Origin: Tetracentron sinense
Taxonomy: Eukaryota > Streptophyta > Magnoliopsida > Trochodendrales > Trochodendraceae
Assembly: GCA_015143295.1 (NCBI GenBank)
Contig: CM026554.1
Span: 33,679,531-33,743,530 of the forward strand
DNA: 64,000 nt
Reading direction: 5' to 3'
The notes beneath the pieces are model-generated. The model was not told the DNA's origin. It made no database searches and saw only the letters and a program-made list of their open reading frames with translations. Of this stretch, positions 16,767-53,220 are shown piece after piece. The position numbers and the translations under genes were made by a program. The number at the start of each line of letters is the position of its first letter. Position 1 is the first letter of the stretch.

Positions 16767-17934
16767 TGTAGAATCCCAAATTTATTATTCTTGATATTCG
16801 TGATAATTATTAAATTTTATAGAAACCTGTGTTTAAAAATTTAATGTGAACAAGCTCATAAATTTTAGATGAAACTCATTTATTTTAAAACTCAAATAAG
16901 GTACTTAATTTAAGAGATTTTTAGAGTGAAATTGCATGAAAAGAAAGATAGGCAAAAAAAAGTAGCAAAAGACAAAAAAAAAAAGGATCGGCGCTCCGGT
17001 CGATCGATCGCCCACAACACCGTTTTGGCCTCGATTTGCGCGATTTTTTGATTTTTGGAGTCCCTAAGGCCCTCAACACTATAAATAAGCCTTATATTCG
17101 TGAGTTGAGGGTTTCTAAAGCTTTCTAAACCTAAAACAGAGAGAGAGAGAAGGAGATTTTGGGAGATTCAAGAAGGGAGATAAAAAGTTTTGTAAGGAAA
17201 AATGATGAAAAGACTTAGATCAATCTCATTTGCAAGCGTTTGATTGTAGGGAAGCGATCGGGAGAGGAAAATATAAATTTCTTCCTACCAATATGGTGAC
17301 TTTAAGATAAACAAGAGAAATACGTACAAGTTAGCACGTATAAGAATTGAAATTGAATTATGCTTCCGCACTCTGAATTGTTTATATGTGTTACATGTCA
17401 CGTTGAATTTTAAATTATGCCTTATATTAAATGTTGCTATATTGTTAGCTAGGAGTTTATATATACGCGGGATAACTTGTTACTCAGCCGATGACTTTTG
17501 TTGTCGGTAGATTCTAAGTTTAATATTTGTGTCTCAGGACCTTGGGAAGAGGAAGAATACGAGGAAGAAGAAGAAAAGCCAGCAGGTGATTAGCCCGATG
17601 GTGAATGGAATTTGGACCGTTGGCCATTTCCAGGAAATTAATTATTAGTATTTTGATTTGGAGTTTTAGACACTGTAATAGACTAAATTTTAGACTTATG
17701 GCCGGTTAGATTGAATTGATGATTGGGAATCATGGAGGATGATTCAAATTATTTATGATGTTTTTAGTATTTAATTCAAGACATTAGACTTAATCATGAT
17801 TTATTTAAAGAAAAATTTTCAGATTTATGTTTTAGATTGCCTTAAATGCTTTATGACAGGAAGTTATGGAAGTTGATGGTTAAGTCACGTGCCAAAGTTT
17901 CACATTAAGCTAGGTCGGATTTTGGGGCGCGACA
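16767..17934 (+). repeat. 5' LTR of the gypsy element
   Basis: Starts tgtagaatccc, ends ggggcgcgaca. A TATA box (actataaataag) is at about 17079-17090. A CGATCGATCG palindrome cluster sits about 80 bp before it. The post-TATA leader is rich in gagaga. Confidence 0.93.
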
Positions 17935-17938
17935 GAGG

Positions 17939-17950
17939 TGGTATCAGAAC
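17939..17950 (+). promoter_or_regulatory. Primer binding site
   Basis: TGGTATCAGAAC lies 5 bp after the LTR end and matches the initiator tRNA-Met 3' end as in many plant gypsy elements. A second similar word, tggtatcagagc, occurs near 18036. Confidence 0.8.
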
Positions 17951-18279
17951 CCAGGCATTAGGATCATAGGGATTGAGGTGTTTTTCCAGTTTGGACCTAT
18001 GATTGATTTAATAAATGTTTGATACCACAACAGAGGTGGTATCAGAGCAAAGGCATTAGGTTAGCTAGGGCTTAAGTTTTAGGGATACAACAGGCTAGTA
18101 TTCATTGTGATGTTAGTGTAAGGTTTGAGTGTTAAAGTAAATTAATTCCGAGTTAGACTAATTGTTACCGTTTGCTCTCAGGAATATCATAATGAGGCGC
18201 GGTGGTAGAGCGTAACACTAAGGGAAGCGTTGGAAGGGGTATTGAAAAAGGACATCCAATTGGTAATGATTAGCCTGAC

Positions 18280-19430
18280 TTGACTGAAGTGTTCGGATCA
18301 ATTGCCCAGATCATGGCACTCCTTGCAGCCAAGCAACCTGCTGCAGCTGCTCTTGGACACGCAGAAGCACATGCACCTCCTCCACGTAGGGCACATGCAG
18401 GGATTGAGGCATTCTGGAGATTGAGGCCTCCGTCATTTTTTGGGACCACAGATCCAATACCTGCAGAGGCATGGATCTTACAACTGGAGAAGATATTTTC
18501 AGTTCTGTCTCCAACGGATACTGAAAGAGTGACATGGGCAGCCTATATAATGGAAGGCGAAGCAGAGCATTGGTGGCGAGAAGCCTCCAGGAATAGGGAT
18601 TTGACGAGAGTGGGCCAACCATGGATATGGGGGGAATTTCTGAATGTATTTTATAAGAAGTATTTTCCATTTGTCATTCGGGAAAAAAAAGAAGCAGAGT
18701 TCCTCATTCTTAAGCAAGGGAAGATGTTAGTGGCCGAGTATAAGGCCAAGTTCTTCGAGCTTTCAAGGTTCACACCTCACATGATTGCCACAGAGGCGAT
18801 GAAAGCGCGGAAGTTTGAAAGGGGTTTAAGAGATTTCATTCGAGACCGAGTCTCAATGTTTCGACTCGAGACTTTCGCTGAGGTGAACGATAAAGCACAG
18901 TTGGCTGAAAAGAATTCAGAGGAATTCTTGAAAAAGAGAGAGATGAACCAAAAGGAGAAGTTTGGTAGGGGACATCCAAGCAGGGTTGGACCACAGGATA
19001 AGAGGTCTAGATTTTCAGGCCAACCACTAGTAGCTAGGTCGACTCCTTATCAGAGGCCAACACCTCCATCTGCACCTGTGCCTCGTCCTACTACTTCTTA
19101 GGTCACTTGGTATGTGTAGCCCAAGTCTTCTACACCTATGTTTGATGTTTGTGTACATTGTGGGAAGAGGCATCCAGGGGGCGACTGTCGAGCACTCACG
19201 GGTGGATGTTTCCAGTGTAGGCAAATGGGACACCGGATTAGAGATTGTCCTCACCGTAACCAGCAGACCCAACCTCAGGGGAATAGGCCACCTACCAGGT
19301 AGGCACCACAGTAGAAGCCTACTCAGGCTCCCAAACCCCAGCAGCCCCCGCAGCAGCAGCCACGCCAAGTGACTCAGGGTAAAGTCTTTACAATATCAGA
19401 ACAAGATGCACAAGCATCAGATGATGTGGT
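18280..19430 (+). mobile_element. gag region of the gypsy fossil
   Basis: A retrotransposon gag (capsid-like) domain is clear at about 18395-18930, with WILQLEKIFSVL, WWREASRNRD, WGEFLNVFYKKYFP and ELSRFTPHMI. CCHC zinc-knuckle motifs lie near 19150-19260. It belongs to the element above and is a fossil. Confidence 0.88.
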
Positions 19431-19974
19431 GTAAAGTACACTTTAATTATGTCTATATTTGATGTGATATTTTTATGATTAATGTGATGTTTATAATTAT
19501 GATGTATTGATAAAAATATGCTACTGATATTATGTTGATAATGCACAAGATTGACACTTAGTTATATAATAACTCAGGCACCCTATTGATTAATGAATAT
19601 CTGGCACATGTACTAATTGATACGGGATCAACTCACTCATTTGTTACACCTAGTTTTGCAAAGTGATTTGTTTAAGAACCGAGCCAATTAGATAAGGAGT
19701 TGTCCATCTCGACTCCTATCGGTAGATCAGTAGTCACCAACCAAGTATACCGAGCTTGTGTCATCCAAGTTGGACAACATATGTAACGACCCCAAATCCT
19801 ACCTTGACTAAAATAGGACCTTGGGTAGCCACATTTCTTGAACATGCTTAAATCTATGACATACAAGGCATACTAACACGAGTCTCCAAAAATGAGGATA
19901 GTAAAATTTCGATTATATAAAGTGAAACCATCCTATATAATGATAATCTATCCAACATAACCCACCATAATCGG

Positions 19975-20619
19975 CAGGGGCGGAGCCAGGGGCGGGGGGT
20001 GGCCATGGCCCCCCCAAATTTTTTGTAATTCCTTATTGCACTAGTATTAATAGTGGGCCTCTCAATTAAAAAATAATAATTTTAGTATACTTGCCCCCCC
20101 CCCCCCCCCCCCCCCCGCCAATCTTTTTGTCCTATATAATATAGTGGCCCCCCTAATTTTTTTTGTCATATATATAGTGGGCCCCCCAATGGAGTCCCTT
20201 TATGCCCTTGAGGTTGCCACATGTCCTTATTGACACCCCTTAACTATGGTTAAAATTCACTCAATCTCAGGTTCACCTACTTATCCTTGGTTTTTAGAAA
20301 ACAATATTTAAATAATTTTAACTTTAGGTGTTAGTTAATTTTAAACTAGGGTTCAAAAAGAAATTTGATACTTTTTTTAAAACCAAGGATAGGTGGGCGA
20401 ATCTGAACCACAATTAAGGGGGTCTTAATAGGGATATGTGGCGACCTCAAAGGCATTACTGAGAAAAAAATCTCAAAATAAAAAAACTACCAAAAAAAAA
20501 AATTTCTTGGGGGCTATGCCTCCAAACCCCCCAAATTCCATACCCTCAAATCAAATTTTTTCTTATACATGTATTTTGGCCCCCCTCCCCCCAATGAAAA
20601 ATTCTTGGCTCCGCCCCTG
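19975..20619. mobile_element. Non-autonomous hAT element in the solo LTR
   Basis: Inverted ends caggggcggagccagg and ttggctccgcccctg are nearly perfect. The 8-bp flanks ataatcgg (19967-19974) and ataatcaa (20620-20627) match 6/8, as expected for a hAT of some age. It has no transposase. It contains a 23-base C run (20094-20116) and a nested fold-back unit. Confidence 0.85.
20201..20458. mobile_element. Fold-back MITE nested in the hAT element
   Basis: Left arm tatgcccttgaggttgccac and right arm gtggcgacctcaaaggcatta pair, and pairing continues inward for about 100 bp with indels. It is related to the fold-back at 36240-36812 by the shared GTGGCGACC / CCCCTTAAC words. No clear target duplication. 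Confidence 0.6.
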
Positions 20620-20939
20620 ATAATCAAGATAGAGTAAAGTCATCAAATAATAGTGAACAGTCTAAGCAACATCCTGAAATAACATAAGTTTATTACAATC
20701 ATTTTCAAAATGTAAAACAAGGCCTAATAAAGTGTCCACCCAACCAACTCTCGAACTTCCTCAGCCGGAGGCTCGCTTTCTTCTTCTATCTCGACATAGA
20801 AATCCTCAACCACGGCTCAGCAATCAACTCACTCTAAACCTACCGATAATAACAGGTCGACTGAGCATTAACAACGCTCAGCGGATATCCAGTCTAACTA
20901 ACAATAGCAATAACTCATGCTCATAATCAATATTAAATT

Positions 20940-21505
20940 CACACAGCAGTTACAAAATCAATAACATGTTCATATGACGTTTATATAATCCATGACAAGT
21001 TCATATAGCATAATCAAATGACAGGTTCATATGACACTTGCATAATCCATGACAGGTTCATATGACATTTGCATAATCAGAGTGCGGAAAATATGTGAGC
21101 ATATCATGACGTGTTTCATTGCCCTTATAATTCTGTGTTCATGATTCAGTATTTGTAATTCAGTGTCAATGTCCAACAACGCATGATAAGTTTCATATTC
21201 ATGTTTCAGTACTTGTAATTCAGTTTCAATATCCGACAACATATGATAAGTTCCATATTCATGTTTCAGGACTTATAATTCTGTTACAATATCCAAAAAT
21301 GCATTATAAGATCGACAATGCATGATAAGATCAGTGTTCATAATTCAATATTCTTATCCAACAATGCATGATAAGATCGACAACGAATGATAAGTTCCGA
21401 CAACGCGTGATAAGATCGATAACGCATGATAAGATCTGTGTTTATAATTCAATATTCTTATCTGACAATGCATGATAAGATCGACAACGCATGATAAGTT
21501 CAATG
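20940..21505 (-). repeat. Irregular tandem repeats in the solo LTR
   Basis: Two sets follow each other: variants of catgacaggttcatatgaca at 20960-21075, and variants of acaacgcatgataagatcga at 21170-21505. Spacing is uneven. They lie in the part of the LTR after its TATA on the minus strand. Confidence 0.7.
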
Positions 21506-23261
21506 CTCATATCATCACCTTGAGTCATGTACTTGTGAGAATCCTAGACTTAGGATACAACATGATTATGAGATGGTGGTTACGCTTATGAGTCCATGAG
21601 CAGGTTATTCAAATCATGCACTTATTCAGATCCTTCATTAGGCTTATTCAGTCTATCAGGCATATGCAATGCTTATGATTGTGGTCCACATGTGTGACTT
21701 GTGAAGCTCTTATCTTAACATACACGTGAGTTTGTGCATAAATATCACAATTAACATTCGAATTGGTCATCGCTTAGATTCCGATCTCCCACAATGAAAA
21801 CTCCACTATACTGTCTCATACCATATAGTTAGAGAATTTCTGGTTAGAAAGACCTTCCTCTAAGTTTTGTCCTACTCGAATATCAATCACCATACGATAT
21901 AGATAGGCATAATTTAACATTCATGATTAATATTCGAACTCGGTCATCGCCTAGACTTCAATCTTCCACCAAGAATCTCCGCTAGGTTACATGTCGCTAG
22001 TTAGAGAATTCCCAACCTGGAGGACTTCCTCTAGGCTTTGGCCTATCCAATTATTGATCACCGTACAAGTATAAATAGAGCATAATTTAGCATGTGAGAG
22101 TTTAGGGCATAATTTACATAGTCATAACAAACAATATCTTATCATGATTTCACAATTTTCTTAACCAACTTAATAAATGGTAAACTTCATCCTATTCCCC
22201 TCATTCATAAAACATCATAATAATATAATCGTACTCAATAGAATTTGTATCACAAGTAAAACCCTCATGTCATAGATATAATCCCTCTAGTCATGTTCAA
22301 TAGAATTCATAATATATGCAAAAACCCTCATGTTATAGATAAAATCTCACATTCATTTCATAGAATATATAGCACATGCAAAACCCCCATGTTGTATAAA
22401 TAGCACATAATTTAGCACGATAAACCATAATATCTTATTCGCTTAGTTTCTCAATTCTCGTTTAACATCATATTAACATTGAAAACACTCTCAAGCATTT
22501 AAACAATCACCTTAAGTGTATTTATTATGTGTACATTGCCCTTCTCTTTTTTTTCCATCATACAATAGTCATTCATATAATCTATGAGCATCCAATTCAA
22601 GCTCAACCCCACTTCATGCATCCATAATCCATCCCTTTACCATTTTAACCCAACCACCATCATTTCCATACATCCATAACTCATAAAACATAACTCATAA
22701 TCCAATTAAGCTTCTAACATACAAATTCATCTATATCCTTACTTAAACATGCAATATCTCATACAAATTCATCGTTTATCATACTTAATCAATAAACATA
22801 AGAATACAAAGTTTAGATTGGAGAGGATATCGACTATTCATACACAATAGAGCTTATAGCACATGCAAAACCCTCATTTCAAGAATAAAATCTTTCATTC
22901 ATGCTTATTACTTACTCATCTTTGTTTATTCATGTAATACTCTTGATAATCCATAAACATTTATATTTAAAACATGTAAAACATTTACTGAGGTTAGATT
23001 AGAAAAGATATCGACCTTAGGATCATTCCCTTGGATCCAAATCGCTCCCAAGAAGCTTTGAGGAAGATCTTCAAGTTTTTCTTGCAATTTTCAAGCTATC
23101 TCCTTCTTCTCCAAGAAATTTCTCCCTCAAAACCCTAGATTTCCTCTTTTCCCTTGCCAAATTAGGGTAAAAGGGTTTAGAACCCTAAAATCCTCTATAA
23201 TCAAACCTCTATTTATAGCCCCAATGGTTAAAAACCCAAAAAAACACACTTTTTAACAAAA

Positions 23262-23425
23262 TATGGGTGCGAGTGCGATCGATCACACCTTTGGTGTGAT
23301 CTATCGCACTTAGACCCAAAAGAACTTTAAAAAAGCTTGCCTGAATGCGATTGATCACAGAATTTTGTGATAGATCGCACTATTTTGCAATCGATCGCAC
23401 TTGGTTTGTGATAAATCGCAGCTCC
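23262..23425. repeat. CpG palindrome cluster in the solo LTR (GATCGATC type)
   Basis: Several variants of gtgcgatcgatcaca and gtgatagatcgcac lie in about 160 bp, next to the TATA of the LTR. Palindromic sub-words are GATCGATC, and the arms gtgcgat and atcgcac pair. Confidence 0.75.
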
Positions 23426-25539
23426 CTTTTCAGATACCGACTGATTTTTATCTTATTTTGATCATAAATTTTGACTCGCTTATCAGATTTTGATGATTCT
23501 ACTTGAGTTGGACTCGTCTTTCGAAGGGAAACAACTTTGTATCTAATAGATAAATCCTAATTTTGAGTTTTTAAAGGTCTAAATGGGCTCTAAATCTGAT
23601 TAATCTGTAATTTCATCAGACAAAACATCGGAAAACCCACTTTTGACTAAGCTTAGACTCAAAATCTGGAAAAACATTAAACATAAACCTCAAAGAGGAT
23701 TCCAATACCTTTCTAATGGTTCAAGAATTACTTGATTCTGATAAACGGTGACAAAACTAAAGCTTCCTAAAGTTTGAGAATATATTAAGACATCCCTCTC
23801 TTTACAACTTTGATTAAGTCTTGATCACACTACACCAATTAGATATAAATACATATGCATAAAATATGATAAAAGACTAACTACCCTTATTAAACAAGAT
23901 AGAAATAGGGAATTTAGATTCGGGTCTCTACAACATGAGTTACTGGCAGACCTGATCCTCCTAGACTTCCAAGATTTTAATATCATTCTTGGAATTGATT
24001 GGCTTCCAACTTACCACGGACAAGTAGATTTTTTTGAGAAGATGGTGAAATTCAAGCTAGTTAATGGAACTCCCTTCCATTTTAGAGGATTATAGAAGAA
24101 AGATATCGCTAGATTTGCAGCCTTAAGTCTTTCAAAGTCAGAAGTAAAAGATGGTTCTGTCATCCCAGTAGTCATCAAGTTCATTGATGTATTTTCTGAC
24201 GAGTCACCAGGGTTACCACCAGATAGGTAGATTGAATTTATCATTGACCTAACTCCAACCACTGCACCGATTTCTAGCGCACCGTATAGAATGGCTCCAG
24301 CATAACTAAAGGAGTTGAAGGTACAGATTAAGGAATTACTGGAACAATGTTTCATCAGACCAAGTATGTCACCATGGGGAGCTCCAGTTCTCTTTGTAAA
24401 GAAGAAAGATGGGTCAATGAGGATGTGCATCGATTATCGGCAACTAAACAAAGTCACAATAAAGACCAAATACTCATTGCCACATATTGATGATCTGTTC
24501 GGCCAGTTAAAGAGAGCAAGTTCTTCTCTAAGATAGATCTAGGGTCAAGGTATCACCAGTTGAAGATTAGATCAGAAGATATCCCTAAATCAGCATTTAA
24601 AATGAGATATAGACACTTCGAGTTTTTGGTTATGCCTTTCGGCTTAACAAATGCACCTGCATCATTTATGGACTTGATGAATAGGGTATTTAGACCAGTC
24701 TTGGATTGTTATGTGATAATGTTTGTGGACGAGATCCTTGTATACTCACCAACCAAGGAGGATCATGAGAAACATCTTCGGGTTACACTTGAGACTTTGA
24801 GAGAGCATAAGTTGTATGCTAAATTGAGTAAATTTGAGTTTTGGTTTGAGAATATGGCATTTCTAGGCCATGTCGTATCATTAAAAGAGATTTCAGTAGA
24901 CTCTTCTAAGATTGAAGCTGTTGCAAGTTGGGATAGGCCAAAAGTGTTACAGAAATCAGGAGTTTCCTAGGCCTCGTAGGTTATTATAGAAGATTTGTAG
25001 AGAGATTCTTTAGCTTGGCACTACCACTCACTTACCTGACCAAGAAAAATGTCAAGTTCACATGAGATGATAAATGAGAGCAGAGTTTCTTAGAATTGAA
25101 GAAGCGCCTCACTACGGTCCCAATTCTCACTATTTCATCAGATAGTGGTGGATTTGTAGTTTACAGTGATGCTACGCATGTTGGATTAGGTTGTGTTCTC
25201 ATGCAACATGGTAAAGTCATTGCCTATGCATCACGGTAATTGAAGAACCATGAGAAGAACTACCCTACTCATGATTTAGAGCTAGTTACAGTGGTTTTGC
25301 TCTAAAGATCTGGCGGCACTATATGTATGGAGAAGAGTTTGAATTTTTATAAATCAACAAACCTCAAGTACTTATTCTCTCAGAAAGAGCTCAACTTGAG
25401 AAAGAGTCGTTGGGTAGAGTTTTTGAAAGATTATGATTGTTCGATTCAATATCATCCAGAGAAAGCTAATGTTATAGCAGATGCACTTAGCAGAAGACCC
25501 TCTGATTTACTGGCACACTTAAGGGTCAAAAGGTGGGAA

Positions 25540-26320
25540 TTTTGTTCTCCTTACCACACAAATAGCCTCACTGCTGCTGCATGCCTTCGATCTACGCGCA
25601 ACCTCGCAAAGAACCTTCGCCCTCCCGGCCGGAAACATCTCATAGATAAAGTGAGTTCCCGATATCGGAAATTCTTATTATTCGATCCCCCACTCGAGCT
25701 ATGTTGGACGGTCTATTACCTGCCCCCTCCACTATAAGGGCGCGCTTTGGGATGCTGAGGAGCTATTATCGCCCCTGTAGATTCTGGCCCAAGCCTGAGT
25801 TGAAGCGACCTTCCATCGGACCCTGAAAGAGAGCAGCTTAATGCGGAGGCAGTTCCAGTCCTTGTCGCAGCGCAGTAGCCCTTTACTAGTAGGGGTTTGC
25901 TGGATCGATCGATGGAGTGTTAGTTTCATCTTGTTTAAGCGGGTGAGAAGTATGGCTTACTTTGGTTGGGCAAGCTAGTTCAGTGGATAAGATGGCTGCA
26001 GACCCTGAGTCTGAGTCTAGTTCGTCAAGCTAATTGAATCTGCCGATGCATTCGTTCGGATACATTCTTCCTTCTTATGTATGATTCCTCGTCTACTGCC
26101 GCGTCCAATGAATGGGTTTCGAAGATAAAAAAACTTTATTGGGTGGGATTGGGACATAAATTGACCTAGGTAAATCCATGAGCTCAATTCGATTATTCCT
26201 TACCTATTCTTAATAAGCATCTGAGCTAATTCGTTCAGAACTCAGTTGACTGCTGCTATAGATAAGGCGGAGCATCCTTGGCCTAAGCCAAAATGTTGAA
26301 TAGTAGGAGACGGGTATACC
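25540..26320. other. Probable organelle-derived (mitochondrial) insert in the gypsy pol
   Basis: The retrotransposon protein similarity stops near 25540 (after [10 protein letters not shown]) and resumes near 26323 (MSNNEISFSLCTFGPLV). The DNA between is visibly richer in G and C than its surroundings, has no LTR, TIR or poly-A ends, and has the word texture of plant mitochondrial spacer DNA (for example aagggcgcgctttgggatgc). I infer a nuclear insert of mitochondrial DNA. No organelle gene was recognised, so a different filler DNA is possible. Confidence 0.4.
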
Positions 26321-27860
26321 TAGAAGACATGTCTAACAATGAAATAAGTTTTAGTCTTTGTACCTTTGGACCGTTGGTAGCTAATATTGTTGTCAGATCA
26401 TATATTCGAGTCAGAATCATAGAATTGCAAGGTTCTGATGAATAATTGTTAGCTTATCAAGCTAAGTCCTTCAAAAATGGTCAATAGGATTTCTCAATTA
26501 ATGGAAAATGAGCCATAACATTTAAAGGCAGGTTATGTGTCCCAAATAACGAAGAATTGAGATGAGAGATTTTTGATGAAGCACATTGATCCAAGTATAC
26601 AGTTCATCCCTGTGGTATTAAGATGTACCAAAATCTCAAGAGGCACTATTAGTGGAGGAATATGAACAGAGATGTGGCTACTCATGTATCTTAATATTTG
26701 GTCTATCAACAAGTCAAGGCCGAATATAAGAGACCTGCAGGATTATTGCAACCTCTTCCCATTCCTGAATGAAAGTAGGAAAATATATCAATGGATTTTA
26801 TTGTAGGTTTGCCAAGGACATCTAAGAATTTCGATGCTATTTGGGTAGTAGTGGACCGTCTGACTAAGACAACTCATTTTCTATCTTATCGGACTACCTA
26901 TAATGCTAATAAGTTAGCGGAACTATATATTAAAATGACGTAGTTTATCTCCATGGAGTACCTGTCAGTATAGTTTCTGATAAAGACACAAGGTTTATAT
27001 CAAGATTCTGGAAGAGTTTTTAGCAAGCCATGGGATCTCGCCTAGATTTCAGCATGACATTTCATCATCAAACAGATGGTCAGACAGAGAGAGTGAATCA
27101 GGTTATTGAAGATACGCTCCAATCGTGTATGCTTGACTTTCAAGGCAGTTGGGATGAGCATTTACCCTTAGTTGAATTTGCTTATAACAACAGTTATCAA
27201 GCAATTATTCAAATGGCACCATTTGAAGCCTTGTATGGTAGGACTTATCGATCTCCTATTTGTTGGGATGAAATAGGAGAGAGAAAATTATTGGGTTCCA
27301 AGTTAGTTGAACAGACCACAGACAGGGTTAACTTGATTAGGGAAATGTTAAAAACTGCTCAGAGTAGACAAAAGAGTTATGCTGACACCTGGAGAAGAGA
27401 TTTGGAATTTCAAGTGGGAGACTATGTCTTCGTCAAAAATATCTCCTACAAAGGGGATTATGAGATTTGGAAAGAAAGACAAGTTAAGCCCAAGGTATGT
27501 TGGACCTTTCGAGATTATCAGGAGGGTAGGAGAAGTGGCATATAGGGCTACCCTGCCTCCTCACATGGCAGCAGTTCATAATGTCTTCCATGTTTCTATG
27601 TTGAGCAAGTATATTCAAGATCCATCACACATCATTGACTTTGAACCTCTGAAAATTTGAGAAGATTTAACAATGGTAGAACAACCGGTTCAAATTCTAG
27701 ATCAAAAAGAGTATGTTCTACGCAAGAAGACCATCCATTTTGTCCTCTTTCGATGGCAACATCACCCCGTTGAAGAAGCCACTTGGGAAAGAGAAGATGA
27801 AGTTCGAGAGAAATATCCCCACTTGCTTTAACTCAGGTATGTAATTTCGAGAACGAAATT

Positions 27861-27877
27861 CTTTTAAGGGGGAAGGA
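27861..27877 (+). promoter_or_regulatory. Polypurine tract
   Basis: aagggggaagga immediately precedes the 3' LTR start. Confidence 0.8.
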
Positions 27878-29046
27878 TGTAGAACCCTGAATTTATTATT
27901 CTTGATATTCGTGATGATTATTAAATTTTATGGAAACTTGTGTTTAAAAATTTAATGTGAACAAGCTCATAAATTTTAGGTGAAACGCATTGATTTTAAA
28001 ACTCAAATAAAGTACTTAATTTAAGACATTTTTAGAGTGAAATTGCATGAAAAGAAAGATAGGCAAAAGACTTATAAAAAAGAAGGATCGGCGCTCCGGC
28101 CGATCAATCACCCACAGGCGGCGGCGATCGATCGCCCACAACACTGTTTTGGCCTCGATTTGCATGATTTTTCGATTTTTGGAGTCCCTAGGACCCCCCA
28201 ACACTATAAATAAGTCGTATATTCGTGGGTTGAGGGTTTCTAAAACTTTCTAAACCTAAAAGAAAGAGAGAAGGGGATTTTGAGAGATTCAAGAGGAGAG
28301 ATCAAAGGTTTTACAAGGAAAAATGACGAAAAGGCTTAGATCAATCTCATTTGCAAGCGTTTGATCATAGGGAAGTAACCGGGAGTGGTAAATACAAATT
28401 TATTTATATCAATATGGTGACTTTAAGATAAACAAGAGAAATAAGTACAAGTGAACACGTATAAGAATTGAAATTGAATTATGCTTCCGCACTCTGAATT
28501 GTTTATATGTTTACGTGTCACGTTGAATTTTAAATTATGCCTTATATTAAATGTTATATTGTTAACTAGAAGTTTATATATACGTGGGATAACTTGTTAC
28601 TCAACCGATGACTTTTGTTGTCGGCAGATTTTAGGTTTGATATTTGTGCTCCAGGACCTTGGGAAGAGGAAGAGTACGACGAAAAAGAGGAAGACCTGCA
28701 GGTGATTACCCTGATGGTGAATGGAATTTGGACCGTTAGCCATTTCCTAGAAATTAATTACTAGTATTTTGATTTGGAGTTTTAGACAATGTAATAGACT
28801 AAATTTTAAACTTATGATTAGATTGAATTGATGATTGGGAATCATAGAAAATGATTCAAATTATTTATGATGTTTTTAGTATTTAATTCAAAACATTAGA
28901 CTTGATCATGATTTATTTAAAGAAAAATTTTCAAGTTCATGTTTTAGATTGCCTTAAATACTTTATGACAGGAAGTTATGGAAGTTGATGGTTAGGTCAC
29001 GTGCCAAAGTCTCACATTAACCCAGGTGGGATTTTGGGGAGCGATA
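27878..29046 (+). repeat. 3' LTR of the gypsy element
   Basis: Matches the 5' LTR through its whole length. The palindrome cluster (28090-28140) has about 24 more bases here than in the 5' LTR. Followed directly by the GAGAG target copy. Confidence 0.93.
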
Positions 29047-29051
29047 GAGAG

Positions 29052-32735: not shown

Positions 32736-33119
32736 GGGTGGATTTGCAAAGGATTTAAAAGTTAGTGGGGGGTAAAATACAAAATTATAAAAGGGAATGG
32801 GGTATTTACAAATGACTAAAAAGATAGGGAGTTTTCACAAAATAAAACCTTCATAAAACACAATTCCTCCATCATATAATACTATTCTCCATTCACATTC
32901 ATTCATAAACCATAGACATTCATCCAAACTCATCCACCATAATTTCTCATCCTCCGTTTCACTCATTCATAGAGTTAACATTGAATATCAACATCATAAT
33001 AATTGAATAATGTTCAATAGAACCTATAAACACATGCCAAACCCTATTTCATGCTCCCAATCCCACAATACATGTATAATTATGTTAATATATGAAAAAA
33101 TCCAGTGAATCTCAAATCT

Positions 33120-34480
33120 ATGTTTGAGTCAAGAACTCACAAACCTAAGGGGGTGGCTAGGTCTTCCTACAAGTTTATCTACCTTTTTAATTTATGTAAT
33201 CAAATTATTAACTAAGGGAGGATGAACAATAAAGTACGGAATAAGAGAAACAAACAAACCACAACACAAATATTTGTACGTGAAAATTCTTTCGGGAAAA
33301 ATCACGGGAGCTAGTCCAGTAAGAGATATCATTAAGACAAAGTAACAAATACTTACAGGACTCAAACTGTACTCAACCGAACTCGACACTATGGTCTTCA
33401 GTACTCAGTCCTCCACGCCTCGATAAGCAATCACGATCTTGCAAGACTCCCAATCTATCGTAGTAGCCTGTTCTTAATAAGACTGGCCAAAGAAAGATAA
33501 AATTGTCGACAAGGAGCTGACCAAGTGGTCAGGATGTGCTAATGGAAGAGTGTCGCAATCGCCAAAGAAAAGAGTGTGGCACTCGTCTTTGTCTCTAAAC
33601 AAGACCTACGTGCCTGATCAGTGCAAAAAGATTCTAGGCGGTAGTATCCGCTTTAAAGATAGACCCGCTCTGCGATCTCAGCTGATAATTCCTGAATGGG
33701 TTGATGGTTGTTCAATTAACATTCCCTATATGGATTTGAACGGAATAAACAAGCAAGAATGATCAAACAATATCTTGCATACTCTAGGATGGAAAATGAG
33801 AGGAGAATGAGTTTGGAAAACCTTAAATCACTCAATAAAACTCTCTCAAACTTCTTAGGTTCGAATGTGGATTGAACCCAACTTATATAGGGTCAAATAG
33901 TGTTCTAATCAAGGTAGGGGACCAATTTCACAAGGAGTGGTCGACTGGTCTTAAAAGTGGTCGACTGATCCGCTAATGGTTGACTAGAGGTATGAGTGGT
34001 CAACCACCCATTAGTGTACACTCTAGAAAATAACACCATACAATTTTTTTGTATGAGCGGCAGACCAGAATCAAGAGCTGTCGACCGATAGACCCAGAAT
34101 TGGTCAAAACTTCCTTCATGAAAGTTGTAGATCTTTTTGAGGGCTTAAATTTTCATATATTATGGACTAAAATCAAAGTAACAGTCAGTGACTTATGCCC
34201 CATACACTGAACATAAGTTGTTTTGCATTTCTAACTCCTCTTATGCCTATGAAGGCTTGTATCTAGTCACCTAAGGTACATAAAATGATTCTAAGTCAAT
34301 TTTCCCCTAAGGTAGAAGGTATCTAGGTCACTTACCATCCTATGAGTGAGACGAATGCGACGTTTTGAATGTCTTCAATTGAACTTCTATGATCCTCATC
34401 ATCACGGACTTTGATGCTTGTAGGCAATGACACAAGACACTTTGTTTTGACATCGGAATATGTTAATACCAAAGGTATGG
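33120..34480. mobile_element. LTR-like repeat inserted in the preceding remnant
   Basis: Begins near a tacgtgaaaattctttcggg block (33278-33300), a phrase common to a class of plant LTRs, and holds a gtggtcgactg palindrome cluster at 33935-34095. No coding domain. Borders are approximate and family assignment is open (copia-like suspected). Confidence 0.35.
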
Positions 34481-34804
34481 ACTTACAATATATAACCCAT
34501 TAATCTATGCATAATCTTACTTAAACATATCAAGAATCATAATAAGGTTAGGTTAGACAGTATATCGACTTTTGAGATTGTACGATCCAATTGCTTGAGG
34601 ATGACCTTTGGGGCGATCTCCAAGCTTTTCCTCCATTCTCCAAGAAAAATCTCATGAAAACTCTAGGTTTTCCTCATCTCTCCTTTAAAATAGGTTTAGA
34701 CTCTTAGATACCCTGAAATTAACCCTTGAAATATTAAAAGGACTATTTATAGTGGTAGGGTTTAAAACCCTAAAAATCACGCAACTTAGGGTTTTCCCGA
34801 AATA

Positions 34805-36190: not shown

Positions 36191-36239
36191 ATTAGGGTTA
36201 AGCAATCTAACTATGATTTTTAAAAATAATAAAAAAAAA

Positions 36240-36812
36240 GGAGCCAAATCCTCTCCGGTGATAACCGGATTTGGCAAATCCGGTTATCACCCCTAGAGGT
36301 CGCCACGTGTCTCCTTTGACACCCCTTAACCGTGGGTAAGGTTCACCCACCCATTTTTGGTTTTTTTTATTTATAAATATTAATTCTTTTTCTAAAATTT
36401 AAAAACTGTTTTTATTTTAATTAATACAAATATTTAAAATACCTAATATTTTTTTCTATTACTTAAAATTTGAATTAACATATTACATTTTCTGAGTGAT
36501 TTTCTTATGTATAAATAATTTTTTAATCTAAAGACAGTTTTTTAATTTTAGAAAAAGAATTAATATTTTTTTAAAAAAAACCAAAAATGGATGGGTGAAC
36601 CCTAAGGGTGGGTTGTGTGAGTGCTCTGTGCTTTGTTGCATGTTGGGGTGTGTGTGAGTTATGTGTGTGTGTTTGTGTTAGTGTTATATACACCAAAAAA
36701 AAAAAAACCCTAGGGGTAGCTGAACCTTACCCAAGGTTAAGGGGTGTCAAAGGAGACACGTGGCGACCAAAAGGGGTGATAACCGGATTTGCACCGGAGA
36801 TGATTTGGCTCC
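36240..36812. mobile_element. Long fold-back MITE
   Basis: Ends ggagccaaatcctctccggtg and caccggagatgatttggctcc are inverted. Pairing continues through gtgataaccggattt and agg/ggtcgccacgtgtctccttt into AT-rich sequence, with arms of about 200 bp. The right arm holds an extra GT-rich block of about 110 bases (36605-36715) between gtgaaccctaaggg and its near-copy. Long-TIR MULE-type MITE is my best guess. The target duplication is obscured by A runs. Confidence 0.7.
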
Positions 36813-39320: not shown

Positions 39321-41641
39321 TGTAGGACCCCCGGAACTTTTCGTGCCTAATGAACAGTGTTCTCGTAGTCAATTGACCTTTCACATAATTTAATTAATAA
39401 ATGAAAAAGAATTTGATGATTCTGAAACGCCAGAAATGTTCCTTTTTGAAAGACGAATTCAACGCAAGTTGAATCGTCAAATCCGACGAATGAGTCAAAA
39501 GTTATGGCCAAAATACCAAAGTAGAAAAAAATAAGGAAAATCAGCAAAATAGGCAAAACACAGACCAACCGGTCAACTGCTCTAGCCACCAGTCGACCCG
39601 TTGCCTACCGGTCGACCTCTCTACCCACCGGTCGACCACTCTCGCACTAAAACTTGTATGAGGAATTTTTCCAGAGAGGTGATTTTGACCGGTCGACCGC
39701 CCCTCACCACCGGTTGACTTCTAGCCTACCGATCGACCGCTCCTATGACCGGTCGACCGCTCCTCGGGCACTTGCCTATTTGGTTGGTTTTGTCCGAAAT
39801 TTTAAGAGTAGGATGGTTCATTTGATCACCCCTTTTTCTATATAAAGCCCCAACTCGTGGGTGAGGGTTTCATAAACCCTCAAAGCTCATATTTGGGGAT
39901 TTTGGGAGATTGAAGAAGGAAGAGAAGTGAAGCTAGGGTTTGGCCAAGGGTTGGTTTGTGTGATTAAGGGGAAAGCTTGGATCTCATCTTCCCTCAAGTT
40001 CTCCTCTAATTTTGAAGGTTAGTACACCCTACTAACTCACTTAGCAATAACCTAGGTTTCCTTATTGTAAATGATGCTTTCGTTCTTGTGTTCCTCTTTT
40101 CTTGAAATATGCTATATTCCCTAAATATAAACAAGATAATGTGAATGGTGGAATGTATGGATGGATGAGGGGTTTGAGGCGCTTGGATGCCGTGTAGATG
40201 TGGTGTAATGTGTGTGATGGAAAATGGTGGATGGGTATCCTACAAATAATGAATACACCTTGATATTTTGATGGAATGTATGCACTAACAAGAGGAAATG
40301 AAACGAATATGAAAGGTTGCATGTCATGTGTTCGATTAAATGCTTAAATGAAAAGTTCCCCAATAAATGAAGAATTTGAAAGCATGAATATGTGTAGTTT
40401 TCCTTCAAATCCATAACCTTGATCAAATGCCATATAGATTATCTAAATCCTCACATGTTTATACTATGAATTGAAATGCTACACCCTATCCTTCATGTCA
40501 TATTGTTATCATGATTACTACAAGTGCCACACATACCCACGCATACATGCATGAACCGATGTTTTTAAAGTACTAGTATTTGAAAGAAATAAATAAGAAC
40601 AAGAAATGCGATTCACGATACTATTGATAAAGCCGGACATCGGACCGGTTAGGGGTAGGGCATATCCCTAGGATATGTCATACCTGGCTCACAAGGAAAA
40701 CAAACACAAATGTCAAGGGTATGACATATCCCTAGGATATGTCATACCTGGCTCACAAGAAAACAAGACAAGGAGGTTGGTGTACCTTTTTCATATATAT
40801 ATATATATTTCGCTCAAGGGAATTTACATTCCCGGCTCACAAGTCGCATCAAGGGCACTAACCTCTGGCTCACAAGTATACAAGCAAGTCAAGTCAAGAA
40901 CATGACAAGAACAAGCAAGACATGTATGATTCTCACAAATAAGACCAAGATAAGAAACAAGTTTTCAATTATGACGAATAAGTTTTGAAAGAAACATGAG
41001 ACTAATTTCAAGTATAAGACATGGCTTTTAAGTACGAGTTTTATTGGAGTTTTTGTTTTTGCATTCATGCAAGCATGTCAAGATTATCATACTACTTTAC
41101 TTTCAATGCTATTGTCATTATTTGTTTTTGAATGGATGTGATGAATTATATCTTGTTACTTTGTGTGATTGTTATTGCTATTGTTAGTTAGTAGCTTGTA
41201 CTTGCTGAGTATTCCATACTCAGCCGGACCGAAGAAGCCCTCAACCCCGAGCTTTGGGTTGAGGAAGAGTATGTTGAGGAGAGAGAGCCTCCTATCCCGA
41301 TACAGTCGCAGGAGGATAGAGACCGTGATGTCTGGCCATACTTAGATTACTGTTGAGCATAGTGGGCTCAATAGTTCTTTTTGTATTTTGCTATTTTGAT
41401 GGGTGGGCATGTCCACCTTTGACTTGATATGTTTTGTATATTCTCACTTGGAATACAGACCACCTTATATAGAAAAGAAAATTTTGGTTTACGCTTCCGT
41501 ACTCATGTTTTAGCTTCCGCGCTCTGATTATTATTGTTATAGTATTATGTTTATCTTGTTCATTACTGGATGGTTTGACAGGTACGAATAGTCACCTCTA
41601 AAGTATCCCTTAACTCCTAGGGGGTATTTTGGGGCGCGACA
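39321..41641 (+). mobile_element. Gypsy solo LTR with perfect target duplication
   Basis: Starts tgtaggacccc, ends ggggcgcgaca, and is flanked by CAGAT on both sides (39316-39320 and 41642-41646). The end words match those of the gypsy element at 16767-29046. TATA box tctatataaagcc at about 39838. A CGGTCGACCG palindrome cluster lies at 39560-39765, just before TATA. Two near-identical blocks with atatccctaggatatgtcat lie at 40662 and 40727. No internal domain. The perfect flanks suggest a fairly recent insertion into the ClpB-like gene. Confidence 0.9.
39560..39770. repeat. CpG palindrome cluster (GGTCGACC type)
   Basis: About nine variants of accggtcgaccg, spaced roughly 20-25 bp, upstream of the LTR TATA box. 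Confidence 0.85.
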
Positions 41642-46177: not shown

Positions 46178-46449
46178 TTAGCTATAACGGTTATTTACGA
46201 AATAGAGCCTTAGTTATTCAATAATATCTATAAGGTAGCTACTTATAAATACATTTCATTCTTATGTTTTAACATAGAAACCTCTTTTTTTTTCTTCTTT
46301 TTTTTAGAGACCTCCCTTACATTACACACTAATGATGTTAAAAAAATTGTATAAAATGAGAGTGTAGGGAGTATTAACCTAAAAATATTCCACAAATTAA
46401 TTATTATTTAACTATGCTTAGTACTAATCTAATACGAAGTCTTTTTTAT

Positions 46450-47107
46450 TTTCTTAGAAAAATTTATTTTAATAAATTAATATTATATTGTTTTTTAGAA
46501 GGATATATATTATTAAATATATATGTTAGTATTTTTTAAGGATACATTTGATCAAATATTTATTTTAATTTATCTATTTTAAGGATATATATATTTTAAT
46601 ATAGATGTCATAGTGTTATTTTGTTAAAAATATATTTTATTAAATATATATCATAGTGTTATTTTCTTAAAAAAAATATATTAATAAATTAATATGATAT
46701 TTTTTTTTAGAAGGATATATATTATTTAATATATATGTTAGTATTGTTAAGGATACATTTTATCAAATATTTATTTTAGTTTATCTCTTTTAAGGATATA
46801 TTTTGTTTAATGTATATGTCAGTGTTATTTTGTTAAAAAAATATATTTTATTAAATAAATATCAGTGTTATTTTTTTATAAAAATATTTTAATAAATTAA
46901 TATCATATTGTTTTTTTAGAAGGATATATATTATTAAATATATATGTTAGTATTTTTAAGGATACATTTTATCAAATATTTATTTTAGTTTATCTCTTTT
47001 AAGGATATATTTTATTTAATGTATATATCATAGTGTTATTTTTTTAGAAAGATATATTTTATTAAATATGTATCAGTGTTAGTTTTTTAGAATATATTTT
47101 ATTAAAT
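46450..47107 (+). repeat. AT-rich tandem repeat, about 210-bp unit x3
   Basis: agaaggatatatatt starts at 46497, 46709 and 46918 (periods 212 and 209), with nearly the same AT-rich body after each. A scrap of the same unit recurs at 58436-58500, on the other side of the transposase gene. Lies inside the transposase intron. Confidence 0.85.
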
Positions 47108-48426: not shown

Positions 48427-48963
48427 TAGGGGTGTATTCTAGCCGGGCTGAGCCGGGATTAGCCCTGCTCGGTTTGATATTTTTTCATATATGCTGGAGC
48501 TCGGCTTGGTTTGATATTTTTTCAACTATGTTTGAGCTTGGCTCGGATCGAACCTGCTCGGTTAGGCTTGAGCTTGGCTCGGGCTCGAATTGATTCGAGC
48601 TCGAGTCATGCTCGACTTAGCTAAAGCTCGGATTGAATTATTAAAAAATAATTTTTAAATAAAATAATAATATTTTTGTTATATATATACATATATAATT
48701 ATATAATAATGATATTACTTATACATAATAATATTTTTTATAAAATATTCAAGCCGAGCCGAACCAAGCCTTAATCGGGCCGAGCTTCGAGCTGAGCCGA
48801 GCCGAATCAAACAGGCCTTGGCTCGAGCTCGGCTTGAATACATTTTCAAACTCAAAAAATAGCTTGACTCGGCTCGATCGAGCCTATTTTCTGAGCTCAA
48901 GCTAGGCTTTTTCAGGCCGAGCTAAGCCAAACTTCGAGCTAGCTCGGTTCGATTACACCTGTA
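48427..48963. mobile_element. hAT MITE (GAGCTCGGCTCG family)
   Basis: Ends taggggtgtattc and gattacacctgta are inverted (11/13). It is flanked by a perfect 8-bp duplication, atcacggt (48419-48426 and 48964-48971). The interior is a reiteration of gagctcggctcgag words near both ends. 537 bp, non-coding. The perfect flanks mean it is younger than the MITE 110 bp to its left. Confidence 0.92.
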
Positions 48964-50599
48964 ATCACGGTCGAGGGGTAACATAGAGAAAGATATTGGG
49001 AGTCAGAGGAAGTTTGGACGCAGTCAGAGCGTGAGGGTCCCCAGAGCCACCACATGATTCAAGTCTTTACAAGAATCGAAACGCAAAACAGAGACGGTTG
49101 AAGTATCTATGAAGTGGGGAAATCTAGTGGAGATGCTTGGGACAGCTGTATTGAAGTTCTTTATACATAGTCACGTGCCTGCTAATGCCGCCTCGATTGC
49201 ACAATTTAAGAACATGATCGACGAGGCCGCACAGGTTGGTCCAGGGGTACTGCCTCCCTCTTCGTTTGAGATCACGGGAAAATACTTAGATGCAGAGGAG
49301 GTAAGGGATTATATTGTGTGACGCCCCAAACCCGCGCTTAGGGAATCATGTTCCGAGACGAGTGCCCGTTCGTCATTATCACGCGAACGGAAGACTTTAC
49401 TCACGAAAATACGGAAAATTTAAAACATTTATTAGATGCTTTCGATAAAGCAATATACACTGTCATCACAATAGCCATCTTATAAACCATATACTTGTAT
49501 TAATTACATCAAGTCTGTTTTACAAAAGTTGGCCCCCATTACTGCACCGGGTACAGTCTATACAATATCCAAAATCCAGAGGTCCATCACCTACTGATCA
49601 GCAGCTCTAAGATTTGCTGACATGAAACGTCAGTGAGCTATGAAGCCCAATAAAACTACAGTCTATTTAGACTATTTTCTATATAATAACACACATCAAT
49701 AATGATATAATAAACAGTTTAGTTTGCATGTTACAGTAAAATATAACAGCATATAATAAACTATGACCCAAGGTCACTTAGGGTTACGTCACCCTAACCA
49801 AGGTTACTGACCTCATTATTCTCCAATTATTAAGTTCATTTATGAAATGATGTTCACATTATCCAGTTATCATTTCAATCATCAATCATGTTTCATTTCG
49901 AATCTTTAGACTCTATTAACTGGACACAACCCATAAATGTTTATGTTAAAATCTCTAAATCACAACTATACATGGAGCCATTTAGACTCACATACATTGT
50001 TCCGGCTTTCACCTGAATACAACCAAACCTTGAGTATACCAACCCAAACCACTTGGAATCTGAAGATTCCATACCTAACCCCGAGTACACCGATTCAGAC
50101 AAATACACAAACCCTGAGTACTCTGACCCAGACAACTTCGTATCCGAAGATTACACACACGACCTAGGCATTCACCCGATAAGAACATACTTCTCAATTC
50201 AACTGACTGACAATATTTACCGTGTGTTCGCTGCCATCGCCCTGAGTATCAGTCAAGAAGGAACCACGACCAACCTGCCTACTGTCATCTTCTGGCTAGT
50301 CTATGGAGGAACCCTGACATCTTTACTAATGCCGACATCTCCTGACGTTCCACTAAGAAGGGACCCCGATAGACATGGTGCCGACATCTTCTGACCCAAC
50401 CAGAGAGGAACCTCAGACTATACACTATCTGATGTTCAGCCAGTTTAAACTCCCTAGGACTCTGACATCTCTTGACTATCAGTCACGGAGGAACCACGGG
50501 CCTTACTAGACACCGCCACTCCTGACCTAGTCCAAGAGGAACCACAGACGACCTAGACAAACAAACTGACATCTCCTGACTATCAGTCACGGAGGAACT

Positions 50600-52713
50600 C
50601 GTTAGCCTTTAGGTTTTGACCTAAGGTAACATCATTGATTTTGATGATAATACAATAAAGGAATGAATATTGTGTTACTAATGTCTCTTTTGAGTTTCTA
50701 TGAAAATCAGATTAAGAAGAACATTAGAGTGCCATTCAACCAAAAAGCATGAGTTGAATTATATTAAAGCCTATATACAAGAACAAGTCCTAGTCAAGAT
50801 CATTCAAGATGACAAAAGCTCAAAGCTCAAAGATGAAATTGAAGAAGATGGATCATCACAAAGCAATATCAGATCCAAGATCAGAAGAGAATTCTCAAGG
50901 TTTTTAGTGTCTTAGTTTAAGTTGAGAGTGTTTAGGACTTTTGTAAAAAGTCCTCATTAGATGGTTTGGATAAAAGCTCAATAACCTTAGATTGACCATA
51001 GGTTCCTTCAACCAATATAATGATATGATTAAGGACCTTAAAACATGATCATCTTTCTCATAAAGATTAAGTACAAAACCTTAGAATCATATCCTATCTT
51101 AAAGGTTTTAAAAAATGGCTTCAGGAAAGAAACTGATCTATCCAGTCGATCAGACAGACCATCCAGCCGGTCAGGCAGACTATCCAATCGATCAGTCAAG
51201 CCTTGTGATCGACTGGATAGAACAAAAATTTCCAAAATTTGTCCGCATGTTTAGATCGTGTTGGAAACCATTATGAATCCATATTAGATCATTCCAAAGA
51301 TTATTATGAGTTGTTAATCATGTTTATCTAATAATTTAAAAGACTTTGGTATGCTTGAAAATCATTAAGGTCAAGAAGATTAGATTTTAGTGTTTTGTTT
51401 TGCAAACATTCTCTATCCAGCCGATTAGAAGGGTCTTCTGATCGACTGGATAGACCAAGTTCTGCAAATTCGGTTCTGGCCATTTTTCCCAAATCTAGAA
51501 ATCTTTGGGACCCTTTTTGACAATAAATAAAGCAGAATTAAGATTTGTCTATTAGACACAAAATTGTTCCCCTTAAAATTTTAAGTACAATAGGAAGTTG
51601 AATCATCTAATTTCATTCAGAAAATCAAAAGTTATGGTCAAAATATAGAAGGAGAAAAATCGGATCACCATTCAATCGACTGGATGAACCAGTCAACTTT
51701 GAGAGCCTTTTTGGCCATGAAAAGGCAGAATTAGGATTTGATCATTAGAGACAAAATTCTTTCCCTTTTAATTTTAAGTGGAATAGGCTCTCGAATCACC
51801 TAATTCCGATAAGCCAATCAAAAGTTATAGTCGCAACACCGAGAGGCAAAAACATTACTCTATCCAGGCGATTTGAAGACTCATCTAGTTGATCAGAGGA
51901 CTCTCCTAATCGACTGGATGAACTCCAGAACGAACAAAAAGCCTGTAACGACTATATTTTAACGGGTGGTTTCGCATCTATTGCTTCTCCAACGACTATA
52001 TTCTTAAATGCTCTATACATTGAGATGTTCTATGATTTAAAACAATAAGGGTAATCAATCTATCAATTCCTAATAATTCACGAAGATCCAAAACTCAAAT
52101 CCATCGTGAAAAATCTGAAATCCCTAATACTCTGTTTTTGAACTGAAATCCAATCCATCATTTGTGAGATTTCTTAGAGTTTGTTATTCCATTCTTATCT
52201 AACTCTTAAAGGAGTTTGTATTTCGGGTTCAAGATCCAAAATCTCTACATTGTAAAGGTTCATCCTTAACCTCAAAGGATTATGAAGGTTTAATCCTGAG
52301 CTATAAAAGGATTGTGTAACGGTTCATCCTCAGTCCGTAAAAGGATAGTAAAGGTGGTTTCTTAGCCTGCAAGGGAGTGTAACGATTTACCCTTCACTCG
52401 GAAGAAGAGGACATGGTTTGAGAATAAAATCGTGGGGAATCCTTGGAGCGGGAATAGCTCAAGGCGGGGACGTAAGCGGGTTGCCGAACCTCGTGAACAA
52501 TATATGGTGTCAAGTGTTTGCATCTCTCTAATTCTGTCTACTTGACTGATTTCCATTATTGTTTACACTATTGTTAAGCAAAATTGTCAGATTCTCTATT
52601 TTCCTTTAACTTACCTTAAAGTTGAAATTCCGCTTAAGGAATTTAGAGTAAATAATTTTTAATTGCCATAGACCCTATTCACCCCTCCTCTAGGGTCTAT
52701 AACCTAGGCAATA
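50600..52713 (+). mobile_element. Copia-like solo LTR nested in the gypsy solo LTR
   Basis: The repeat text of the outer LTR (gtcacggaggaac) breaks at 50600 and resumes at 52714 (gaaccacgggcctt). Flanks gaact and gaacc match 4/5. The left end gttagcctttaggttttgac with attttgatgataat, and the right end attcacccctcctctaggg, are standard phrases of SIRE-like copia LTRs. 2114 bp. Several GATCGACTGG-type palindromes lie at 51130-51215, 51415-51450, 51665-51690 and 51860-51920. Confidence 0.78.
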
Positions 52714-53059
52714 GAACCACGGGCCTTACAGAATACCGCCACTCCTGAACTAGTCAGAGAGGAACCACTGACTACACTTAACCCTGGTTAGGTTTTCTAA
52801 CAATAGGACTAACCCCAGTTAACTCAAGCCTCACTTGATTAATTGCAATAGGGCCTCACGCCCGTGAACCAAGTTCAATAATATACCGTCCAATTAGGGA
52901 ACATTTTCAGGCCAATGGATGTCTCCATCGCCTTACACGACACTCAGGCAAACTTTTCGATACCCTAGGGTGACAATACCATATACTCGGGACCCAATCT
53001 AGGCTCCCGAAGGTCCACCTGAAGTCCCCACATCATCACAGCCCAAAAATACAGGTCTG

Positions 53060-53220
53060 GGGACTGGCGATCGATTGCCAGTGCTGGGCGATCAATTGTC
53101 CAGACATTTGCATGTTGGCGATCGATTGTCCAGACATTTGCATGTTGGCGATCGATTGTCCAGACATTTGCATGTTGGCGATCGATTGCCAATATAGGAC
53201 GATCGATCGCCCACTGTTCA
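53060..53220. repeat. 30-bp tandem CpG palindrome array (GATCGATT type)
   Basis: The unit tggcgatcgattgtccagac plus atttgcatgt (30 bp) occurs three times in a row, flanked by partial units that include gacgatcgatcgcc. It belongs to the outer gypsy solo LTR and lies after the TATA on the minus strand. Confidence 0.9.

Follow-up and report, generated by a model that had tools for sequence, protein, structure and literature searches.

What are the clusters of short CpG-containing words that recur in the retrotransposon long terminal repeats (LTRs) of Tetracentron sinense? The question is raised by a stretch of 64,000 nucleotides (assembly GCA_015143295.1, contig CM026554.1, positions 33,679,531 to 33,743,530 of the forward strand), referred to here in its full length as the window, with a composition of 37.5% guanine plus cytosine. 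An earlier note on this DNA had described seven palindrome clusters, each with a different word and almost all with a TCGA core, and the listed words were located at or very near the places it had given. The arrays are real, although the original description needs correction. On the evidence of the sequence, we consider it fairly probable that these clusters serve as promoter arrays within the LTRs, made up of short, near-palindromic CpG sites for dimeric proteins and equivalent in kind to the repeated motifs (RM) of Sireviruses.

Word Arrays of the LTR Copies

The clusters lie in both LTRs of an element, E1, which is Ty3/gypsy by its protein matches, and in six other LTR-like copies, E2 to E7. 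They are arranged as follows.

16997-17012, plus strand: E1 left word, consisting of two CGNTCGANCG matches that overlap, 75 base pairs (bp) upstream of the TATA box at 17080
28099-28136, plus strand: E1 right words, one decayed (28099-28112) and one perfect GGCGATCGATCGCC (28123-28136), 76-100 bp upstream of the TATA box at 28205
23274-23420, minus strand: E2 array, six TGCGATCGATCGCA-like words, 63-196 bp upstream of the TATA box at 23217
33936-34089, minus strand: E3 array, six GTGGTCGACY-type words, two of them weak (five mismatches), 53-193 bp upstream of the TATA box at 33889
34816-35033, minus strand: E4 array, eight ATCGTTCGAACGAT-type words, one weak, grouped into three blocks at intervals of about 92 bp, 71-275 bp upstream of the TATA box at 34751
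39568-39761, plus strand: E5 array, eight ACCGGTCGACCGGT-type words forming two blocks at a distance of 120 bp, located 85-265 bp upstream of the TATA box at 39839
51139-51920, plus strand: E6 units TATCCAGTCGATCAG, repeated directly every 21 bp, with inverted copies closing the runs
53066-53211, minus strand: E7 array, six GGCGATCGATYGCC-type words, downstream of the TATA box at 53743

Palindromy is exact in E4, E5 and one E1 right word, nearly so in E2 and E7, and decayed in E3. E6 is a direct and inverted repeat, not a palindrome, with 15-bp units, an inverted unit 24 bp past the last direct unit in all three mixed runs, and one lone inverted unit at 51672. E7 comprises about three near-identical 30-bp tandem copies, spacers included (98% matches). 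As judged by eye, the stretch between the two E1 right words is missing from the E1 left LTR. One word type (GGCGATCGATCGCC) is common to E1 and E7 and GGTCGAC is common to E3 and E5, which contradicts the claim of a different word for each cluster. In addition, CGATCGATCG is common to the words of E1 and E2, while those of E2, E4 and E5 are mutually different.

Core, Spacing and Conservation of the Words

Ten matches to the core CGNTCGANCG were found against 0.08 expected, all ten in E1, E4, E5 and E7, in a test that is partly circular because the pattern had been spotted in the arrays beforehand. With one mismatch allowed there were 27 matches against 3.29 expected, and 20 of these fall within arrays.

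The distances between word centres are 21, 51, 20, 20 and 21 bp in E2, 20, 19, 20, 61 and 20 bp in E3, 20, 19, 53, 20, 19, 53 and 20 bp in E4, 20, 19, 20, 61, 21, 19 and 20 bp in E5, 21, 30, 30, 30 and 21 bp in E7, and 24 bp in E1 right. A phase test was performed on 33 words with at most four mismatches, over periods of 8-14 bp and against 2000 jittered sets; three ladder words with five mismatches (two from E3 and one from E4), three five-mismatch hits beside E3 and E4, the E1 left word and E6 were left out. The best period was 10.15 bp, where the statistic was 25.5 of 33 and the jittered sets reached no more than 16.1 (p = 0.0005). This phase was retained without E3 (p = 0.0005) and with jitter limited to gaps of at least 30 bp in E2, E4, E5 and E7 (p = 0.002). 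The 53-bp gap of E4 is 2 bp off register, and some gaps are repeated by block duplications. When lags among short-lag matches were counted without a model, those of 19-21 bp made up 6/13 in E2, 7/8 in E3, 5/10 in E4 and 22/39 in E5, with 1/9 in the whole of E6 and 7/43 in E7, which has a 30-bp lag; seven control arrays gave 6/16, 0/20, 0/17, 2/10, 1/9, 0/2 and 0/3. The largest lag was about 91-92 bp in E2 and E4.

Outside their CpGs, words are more alike than spacers, with mean pairwise identities in word versus spacer columns of 1.00 versus 0.36 in E2, 0.65 versus 0.30 in E3, 0.73 versus 0.35 in E4 and 0.91 versus 0.34 in E5 (permutation p 0.0003-0.01), the words having been called with consensuses from the same arrays, which favours word conservation. 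The six E2 copies show 0/48 non-CpG differences, and 10/18 of their CpG cells are changed. Across the scored arrays, 28/91 CpG cells are TG or CA and 35/280 other positions are changed, an excess of TG and CA matching the pattern that decay of methylated CpG would leave. Observed over expected CpG ranges from 0.60 to 1.81 over the array stretches (E3 0.67, E4 1.67, E5 1.12). Of the methylation-sensitive switch that had been proposed, methylation is visible only in the form of this decay.

LTR Frames and Sharing of Modules

The nearest words lie 53-85 bp and the farthest up to 275 bp upstream of the TATA box in E1 to E5. Two TATA candidates are present in each of E1 left, E1 right and E4, and the one in the shared frame was chosen; the alternative candidate of E4 lies inside its array. 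The copies carrying the arrays, with the ends of E2 to E7 set by eye, are listed below.

16767-29049, plus strand: E1 element, flanking LTRs with gag, reverse transcriptase and Tf2-1-like SH3 domain matches between them
16767-17937, plus strand: E1 left LTR, 87.7% identical to the right LTR
27878-29049, plus strand: E1 right LTR, paired with the left LTR
23430-23935, minus strand: E2 upstream U3 with box CAAAATTTATGATCAAAAT, a region common to E5 and E6
33091-34488, minus strand: E3 candidate solo LTR, nested in E4, with TG..CA ends and ATATA on both sides
39321-39565, plus strand: start of the E5 LTR and its upstream U3, containing box CAAAAGTTATGGCCAAAAT
50600-52720, plus strand: E6 Sirevirus-like solo LTR, nested in E7
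49318-54452, minus strand: E7 solo-LTR-like copy, split by E6

The reverse transcriptase piece of E1 matches three solved chains, of which the best is named just reverse transcriptase/RNase H and the second is Ty3 Gag-Pol, and a chromodomain match falls below threshold (23.7 bits against a Pfam cut-off of 25.1). No matches to this piece were detected in the viral contig and genome contig collections searched, nor to a 20-mer of the U3 box in the viral contig collection. The starts of E2 (TGTAGAGACCC), E4 (CCGTAGAGATCC), E5 (TGTAGGACCCC) and E7 (TGTAACGACCC) are ones that we take to be gypsy-type. For E2, E4 and E5 this label is supported by homology of their frames to E1, and E7 is gypsy-type by its start only. 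Two longer tandem arrays are also located in this group, one of AACGCATGATAAG at 21138-21501, downstream of the E2 TATA box, and one of GACATCTCCTGACTATCAGTCACGGAGGAACC type at 50240-50600 within E7.

All LTR copies compared come from the window. The regions around the TATA box and R align between E2 and E4 (z = 29.3), E1 and E4 (12.6), E1 and E5 (11.6) and E1 and E2 (6.3), and neither E2-E5, E4-E5 nor any pair with E3, E6 or E7 rises above z = 3.5. Upstream of the array, E2 and E5 are the sole aligning pair (z = 15.8). The suggestion of a fast-changing module in a conserved frame is borne out for some gypsy-type copies, since the words of E2, E4 and E5 differ and frames align, but E7 and the TATA regions of E2-E5 and E4-E5 gave no match above z = 3.5.

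One array is also common to two copies. The arrays of E3 and E5 align over about 187 columns with the same gap order (z = 18.9; score 86, the highest among 500 dinucleotide shuffles being 40), and a match over one 28-bp spacer persists when the words are masked (score 28, with shuffles reaching 24 at most). Outside its array, E3 matches none of the other LTRs (largest z 2.6). A U3 box, CAAAAGTTATGGYCAAAAT, is common with its surroundings to E2, E5 and E6, where it occurs twice, and words adjoin it each time:

23454-23587: U3 box region of E2
39437-39515: U3 box region of E5
51503-51639 and 51697-51832: U3 box regions of E6; these two copies (51503-51832, plus strand) are 78% identical, with words after each

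E5 has its upstream box in common with E2 and E6, its array with E3 and its TATA/R frame with E1, and it resembles a mosaic because these parts match different LTRs. Exchange of arrays between superfamilies is possible, an idea that depends on the tentative lineages of E3 and E6. A C-rich motif, CACCCCTCCTCTAGG, at 52680-52694 near the E6 end is compatible with a Sirevirus identity of that copy. In E3 a C-rich motif lies about 68 bp from the inferred end, as against a mean of 21 bp in Sireviruses (PMC2829016, available text).

Enrichment over Chance

Perfect palindromes, the measure proposed in the earlier note, were counted per LTR in four versions against 500 dinucleotide shuffles, with uncorrected p values. 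An excess was found in E5 (10 against 2.9, p = 0.002), E4 (CG-centred, 5 against 0.6, p = 0.002) and E3 (length at least 10, 5 against 1.2, p = 0.008), while E1 left, E1 right, E2, E6 and E7 showed no enrichment over shuffles. An excess of palindromes is therefore confirmed in three of the eight LTR copies, and the perfect-palindrome count, failing in the other five, was discarded as the main statistic because it is too weak. For near-palindromes, tested in two versions, E4 (p = 0.062 and 0.008), E5 (0.669 and 0.001), E7 (0.002 and 0.059, the score being helped by its almost identical 30-bp tandem copies) and E1 right (0.035 and 0.796) each pass one version. Neither version is passed by E2 (0.155 and 0.074), E3 (0.591 and 0.056), E1 left (0.138 and 0.813) or E6 (0.788 and 0.882).

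Repetition was scanned as copies of any CG-containing 12-mer on both strands in 300-bp windows. All 1276 shuffled windows held at most three copies, and 35 of 638 real windows held at least four, 12 of them over the arrays of E2, E4, E5, E6 and E7 (4-8 copies); E1 and E3 stay below four. As regards the seven palindrome clusters, repeated CpG words beyond all shuffles are consequently present in five copies, but E6 is not palindromic and E1 has only one or two words. The remaining 23 windows lie outside the LTR arrays, for example at 21.1-21.5 kb, 45.3 kb, 48.4-48.8 kb and 59.1-59.9 kb, so that repetition alone is not special to LTR promoters; it is the form of the words, not their repetition, that sets the LTR arrays apart.

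Comparison with Known Systems

The closest system is that of the Sirevirus RM (Bousios 2010, PMC2829016), palindromic sequences with element-specific words, clustered upstream of the TATA box in 13 Ty1/copia Sirevirus elements; they were described as specific to Sireviruses, the "classic" retrotransposons in the comparison having none, and regulation was suggested, with no common binding protein found. The RM criteria include at least eight copies per element, commonly more than 85% identity, a CGG-CCG core except in Tnd-1, and a CpG island (PMC2829016). Some of the arrays described here are similar in their palindromic CpG words, many copies, location upstream of the TATA box and diverging flanks. 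A Vitis Sirevirus word, CGGTCGACCG, equals the core of the E5 word, and the Tnd-1 word, ACAATCGATTGT, resembles that of E7 (PMC2829016). Several properties differ from that account. The core here is CGNTCGANCG, with CGG-CCG occurring in E5 and not in E1, E2, E4 or E7, and copy numbers are eight in E4 and E5, six in E2, E3 and E7 and one or two in the E1 LTRs; any linker copies would not be visible in solo LTRs. The hosts, Ty1/copia in the case of RM, here also include Ty3/gypsy-type elements (E1 by protein; E2, E4 and E5 by shared frame), and spacing register and array sharing are absent from the portion of PMC2829016 available.

Partial likenesses have been described in other systems. The LTRs of Del, a Ty3/gypsy group (Cruz et al., 2014, PMC4029996), likewise contain a CpG-rich stretch of variable length towards their 5' part; its available text reports that islands are missing from the eudicot group and from the nearest monocot group, and it contains no words in "palindrom-" or "tandem-". 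In Tnt1/Retrolyc1 (PMC1838419) U3 changes fast as a module while the rest is conserved, as here, but that text, as available, names no palindromes or tandem arrays. VANDAL elements (PMC5735166) carry short motifs that are particular to each family and form tandem arrays with joint turnover, another resemblance, but they are DNA transposons with an encoded reader and motifs in one orientation. In maize, a Copia palindrome is the motif found most often in the structured parts of Helitrons, which provides a precedent for the occurrence of a single palindrome in two superfamilies, and several transposable element families are known to carry cis-regulatory arrays whose repeats are sometimes palindromic (PMC10760457); the maize Sirevirus LTR palindrome differs in its word from those found here. 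REM/CLSY3 motifs (PMC12270911), which have other words and 1-nucleotide spacing, were set aside as a comparison.

In the literature searched, as far as its text was available, no report of palindromic arrays in Ty3/gypsy LTRs was seen, which is not proof of absence. The kind of array is known; apparently new are its occurrence in gypsy-type hosts, the TCGA core that runs through different words, the spacing register and the sharing of an array. That arrays are present in Ty3/gypsy-type frames points either to superfamilies having converged on a host factor or to promoter cassettes having passed between them. Spacing and common core together offer a concrete bait for the reader protein, a point left open in the available account of Sirevirus RM (PMC2829016).

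Interpretation of the Arrays

If the clusters are indeed promoter arrays for dimeric proteins, each word would be a predicted site for a dimeric DNA-binding host protein, several dimers, spaced by about 20 bp or two turns, would occupy the same face of the helix, and the bound array would drive the promoter just downstream, presumably by activation. Turnover would proceed by tandem duplication and probably also through LTRs exchanging parts of their U3, CpGs would then be lost from old copies, and small-RNA silencing may be a price paid for this structure. Among the options raised in the earlier note, a binding-site array fits best, judging by word conservation and helical register. Conceivable sites and readers include CXC-domain proteins on TTYGAA (E4), W-boxes derived from CpG decay of GGTCGACC (E3 and E5) and GARP or GATA factors on GATC words. 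It is conceivable, though we regard it as rather doubtful, that LTR promoters of plant retrotransposons have in common a helically phased platform of dimer sites with core CGNTCGANCG, in which the word is rewritten or swapped as a cassette across superfamilies and the spacing stays fixed; if true, unrelated elements would trade promoter specificity under an unchanging spacing rule.

A number of observations weigh against the promoter-array interpretation, in addition to the circularity of the core test and the calling of words from their own consensuses. The exact core was not found in E2, E3 or E6, and TCGA, although common to the words, is the commonest CG-centred tetramer of the window anyway (190/373). 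The arrays of E3 and E5 and the blocks within E4 and within E5 are duplicates, and therefore the independent spacing evidence amounts to three or four arrays, with E6 outside the phase test. When E3 is compared with E5, the identity of the words (56/84) is only mildly higher than that of the next 6 bp (19/36), and the central CpG has been lost in four of six E2 copies. The clusters were said to lie near the TATA box, and this stands for E1 to E5, 53-275 bp upstream, but the E7 array lies beyond its TATA box, 539-671 bp downstream, and a clear box is missing from E6, whose sole candidate lies 392-1156 bp off. The scarcity of words in E1 counts on the same side.

The 23 array-like windows outside the LTR arrays could be taken as a sign of neutral slippage, by which functionless short tandem duplications would be tolerated by LTRs, and so could the near-identical E7 copies with their spacers, the duplicate blocks of E5 and the mild E3/E5 difference. 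Four arrays, however, combine conserved words with spacers of near-random identity, and a common core and register run across arrays of different words, so that slippage as the whole explanation appears unlikely. The notion of a recombination product is best retained for array growth and spread, as in the E5 blocks, the E7 tandem copies and the E3/E5 pair. A study by Bousios and colleagues from 2016 is said to have described maize Sirevirus LTR palindromes as small-RNA hot spots within a fast-evolving, palindrome-rich cis region. An RNA structure or small-RNA element would have the words pair in the 3' U3 of the transcript, the hairpins feeding or triggering silencing or serving the element RNA, and small-RNA hot spots at these maize palindromes (PMC5311732, PMC10760457, available text) accord with it, as do the inverted copies closing E6 runs 24 bp on and the folding of array windows, which is better than that of shuffles. 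Among 639 windows of 200 bases, E2 ranks 3, E4 11 and E6 18, 30 and 52, but E7, E5 and E3 are less marked (58, 61 and 73; top 9-12%) and E1 is ordinary (right 229, left 575). Since palindromes fold by construction, pairing needs no helical register and folding may be a cost rather than a function, we give this explanation a small chance. The smallest is given to a self-recognition or anti-silencing tag read by an element-encoded, VANC-like protein, which seems distinctly improbable. Different words in related frames and turnover of copy number recall VANC targets (PMC5735166), but VANC21 motifs have one orientation and words in "palindrom-" are absent from the available text of that paper. The element-specific tag is further weakened by the words shared between elements and by the array common to E3 and E5, whose LTRs match nowhere else, and the E1 pieces scanned gave gag, reverse transcriptase, SH3 and chromodomain matches, nothing more.

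Other Arrays and Repeats in the Window

The idea that such arrays are restricted to LTRs was dropped, as CpG-word arrays also occur at 48.4-48.96 kb, 54.6-56.3 kb and 59.2-60.2 kb. Their commonest lags are not 20 bp, and they look like DNA-transposon ends. Words of GAGCTCGGCTCGAGC type form arrays at 48428-48957 and 59236-60163, the latter bounded by TAGGGGTG and CACCCCTA, bounds that we assume to resemble those of small hAT-type elements. The stretch 56173-56340, next to a DUF659 coding piece (56301-56636), has a 32-bp perfect palindrome (56203-56234) and a GATACG/CGTATC word array; it also looks like a DNA-transposon end, and its window folds most strongly among the 639 tested.

Additional features were detected in other parts of the window:

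4682-6298, minus strand: intact reading frame of 538 amino acids, presumably with ankyrin-like repeats and an MSP-like start
7546-8287 and 9961-11005: three-piece direct repeat, dispersed, with an identity of about 82-84%
36241-36812: inverted repeat resembling a miniature inverted-repeat transposable element, with 107-bp arms 83% complementary, part of it similar to 20205-20448
46446-47107: AT-rich tandem unit of 211 bp in about three copies

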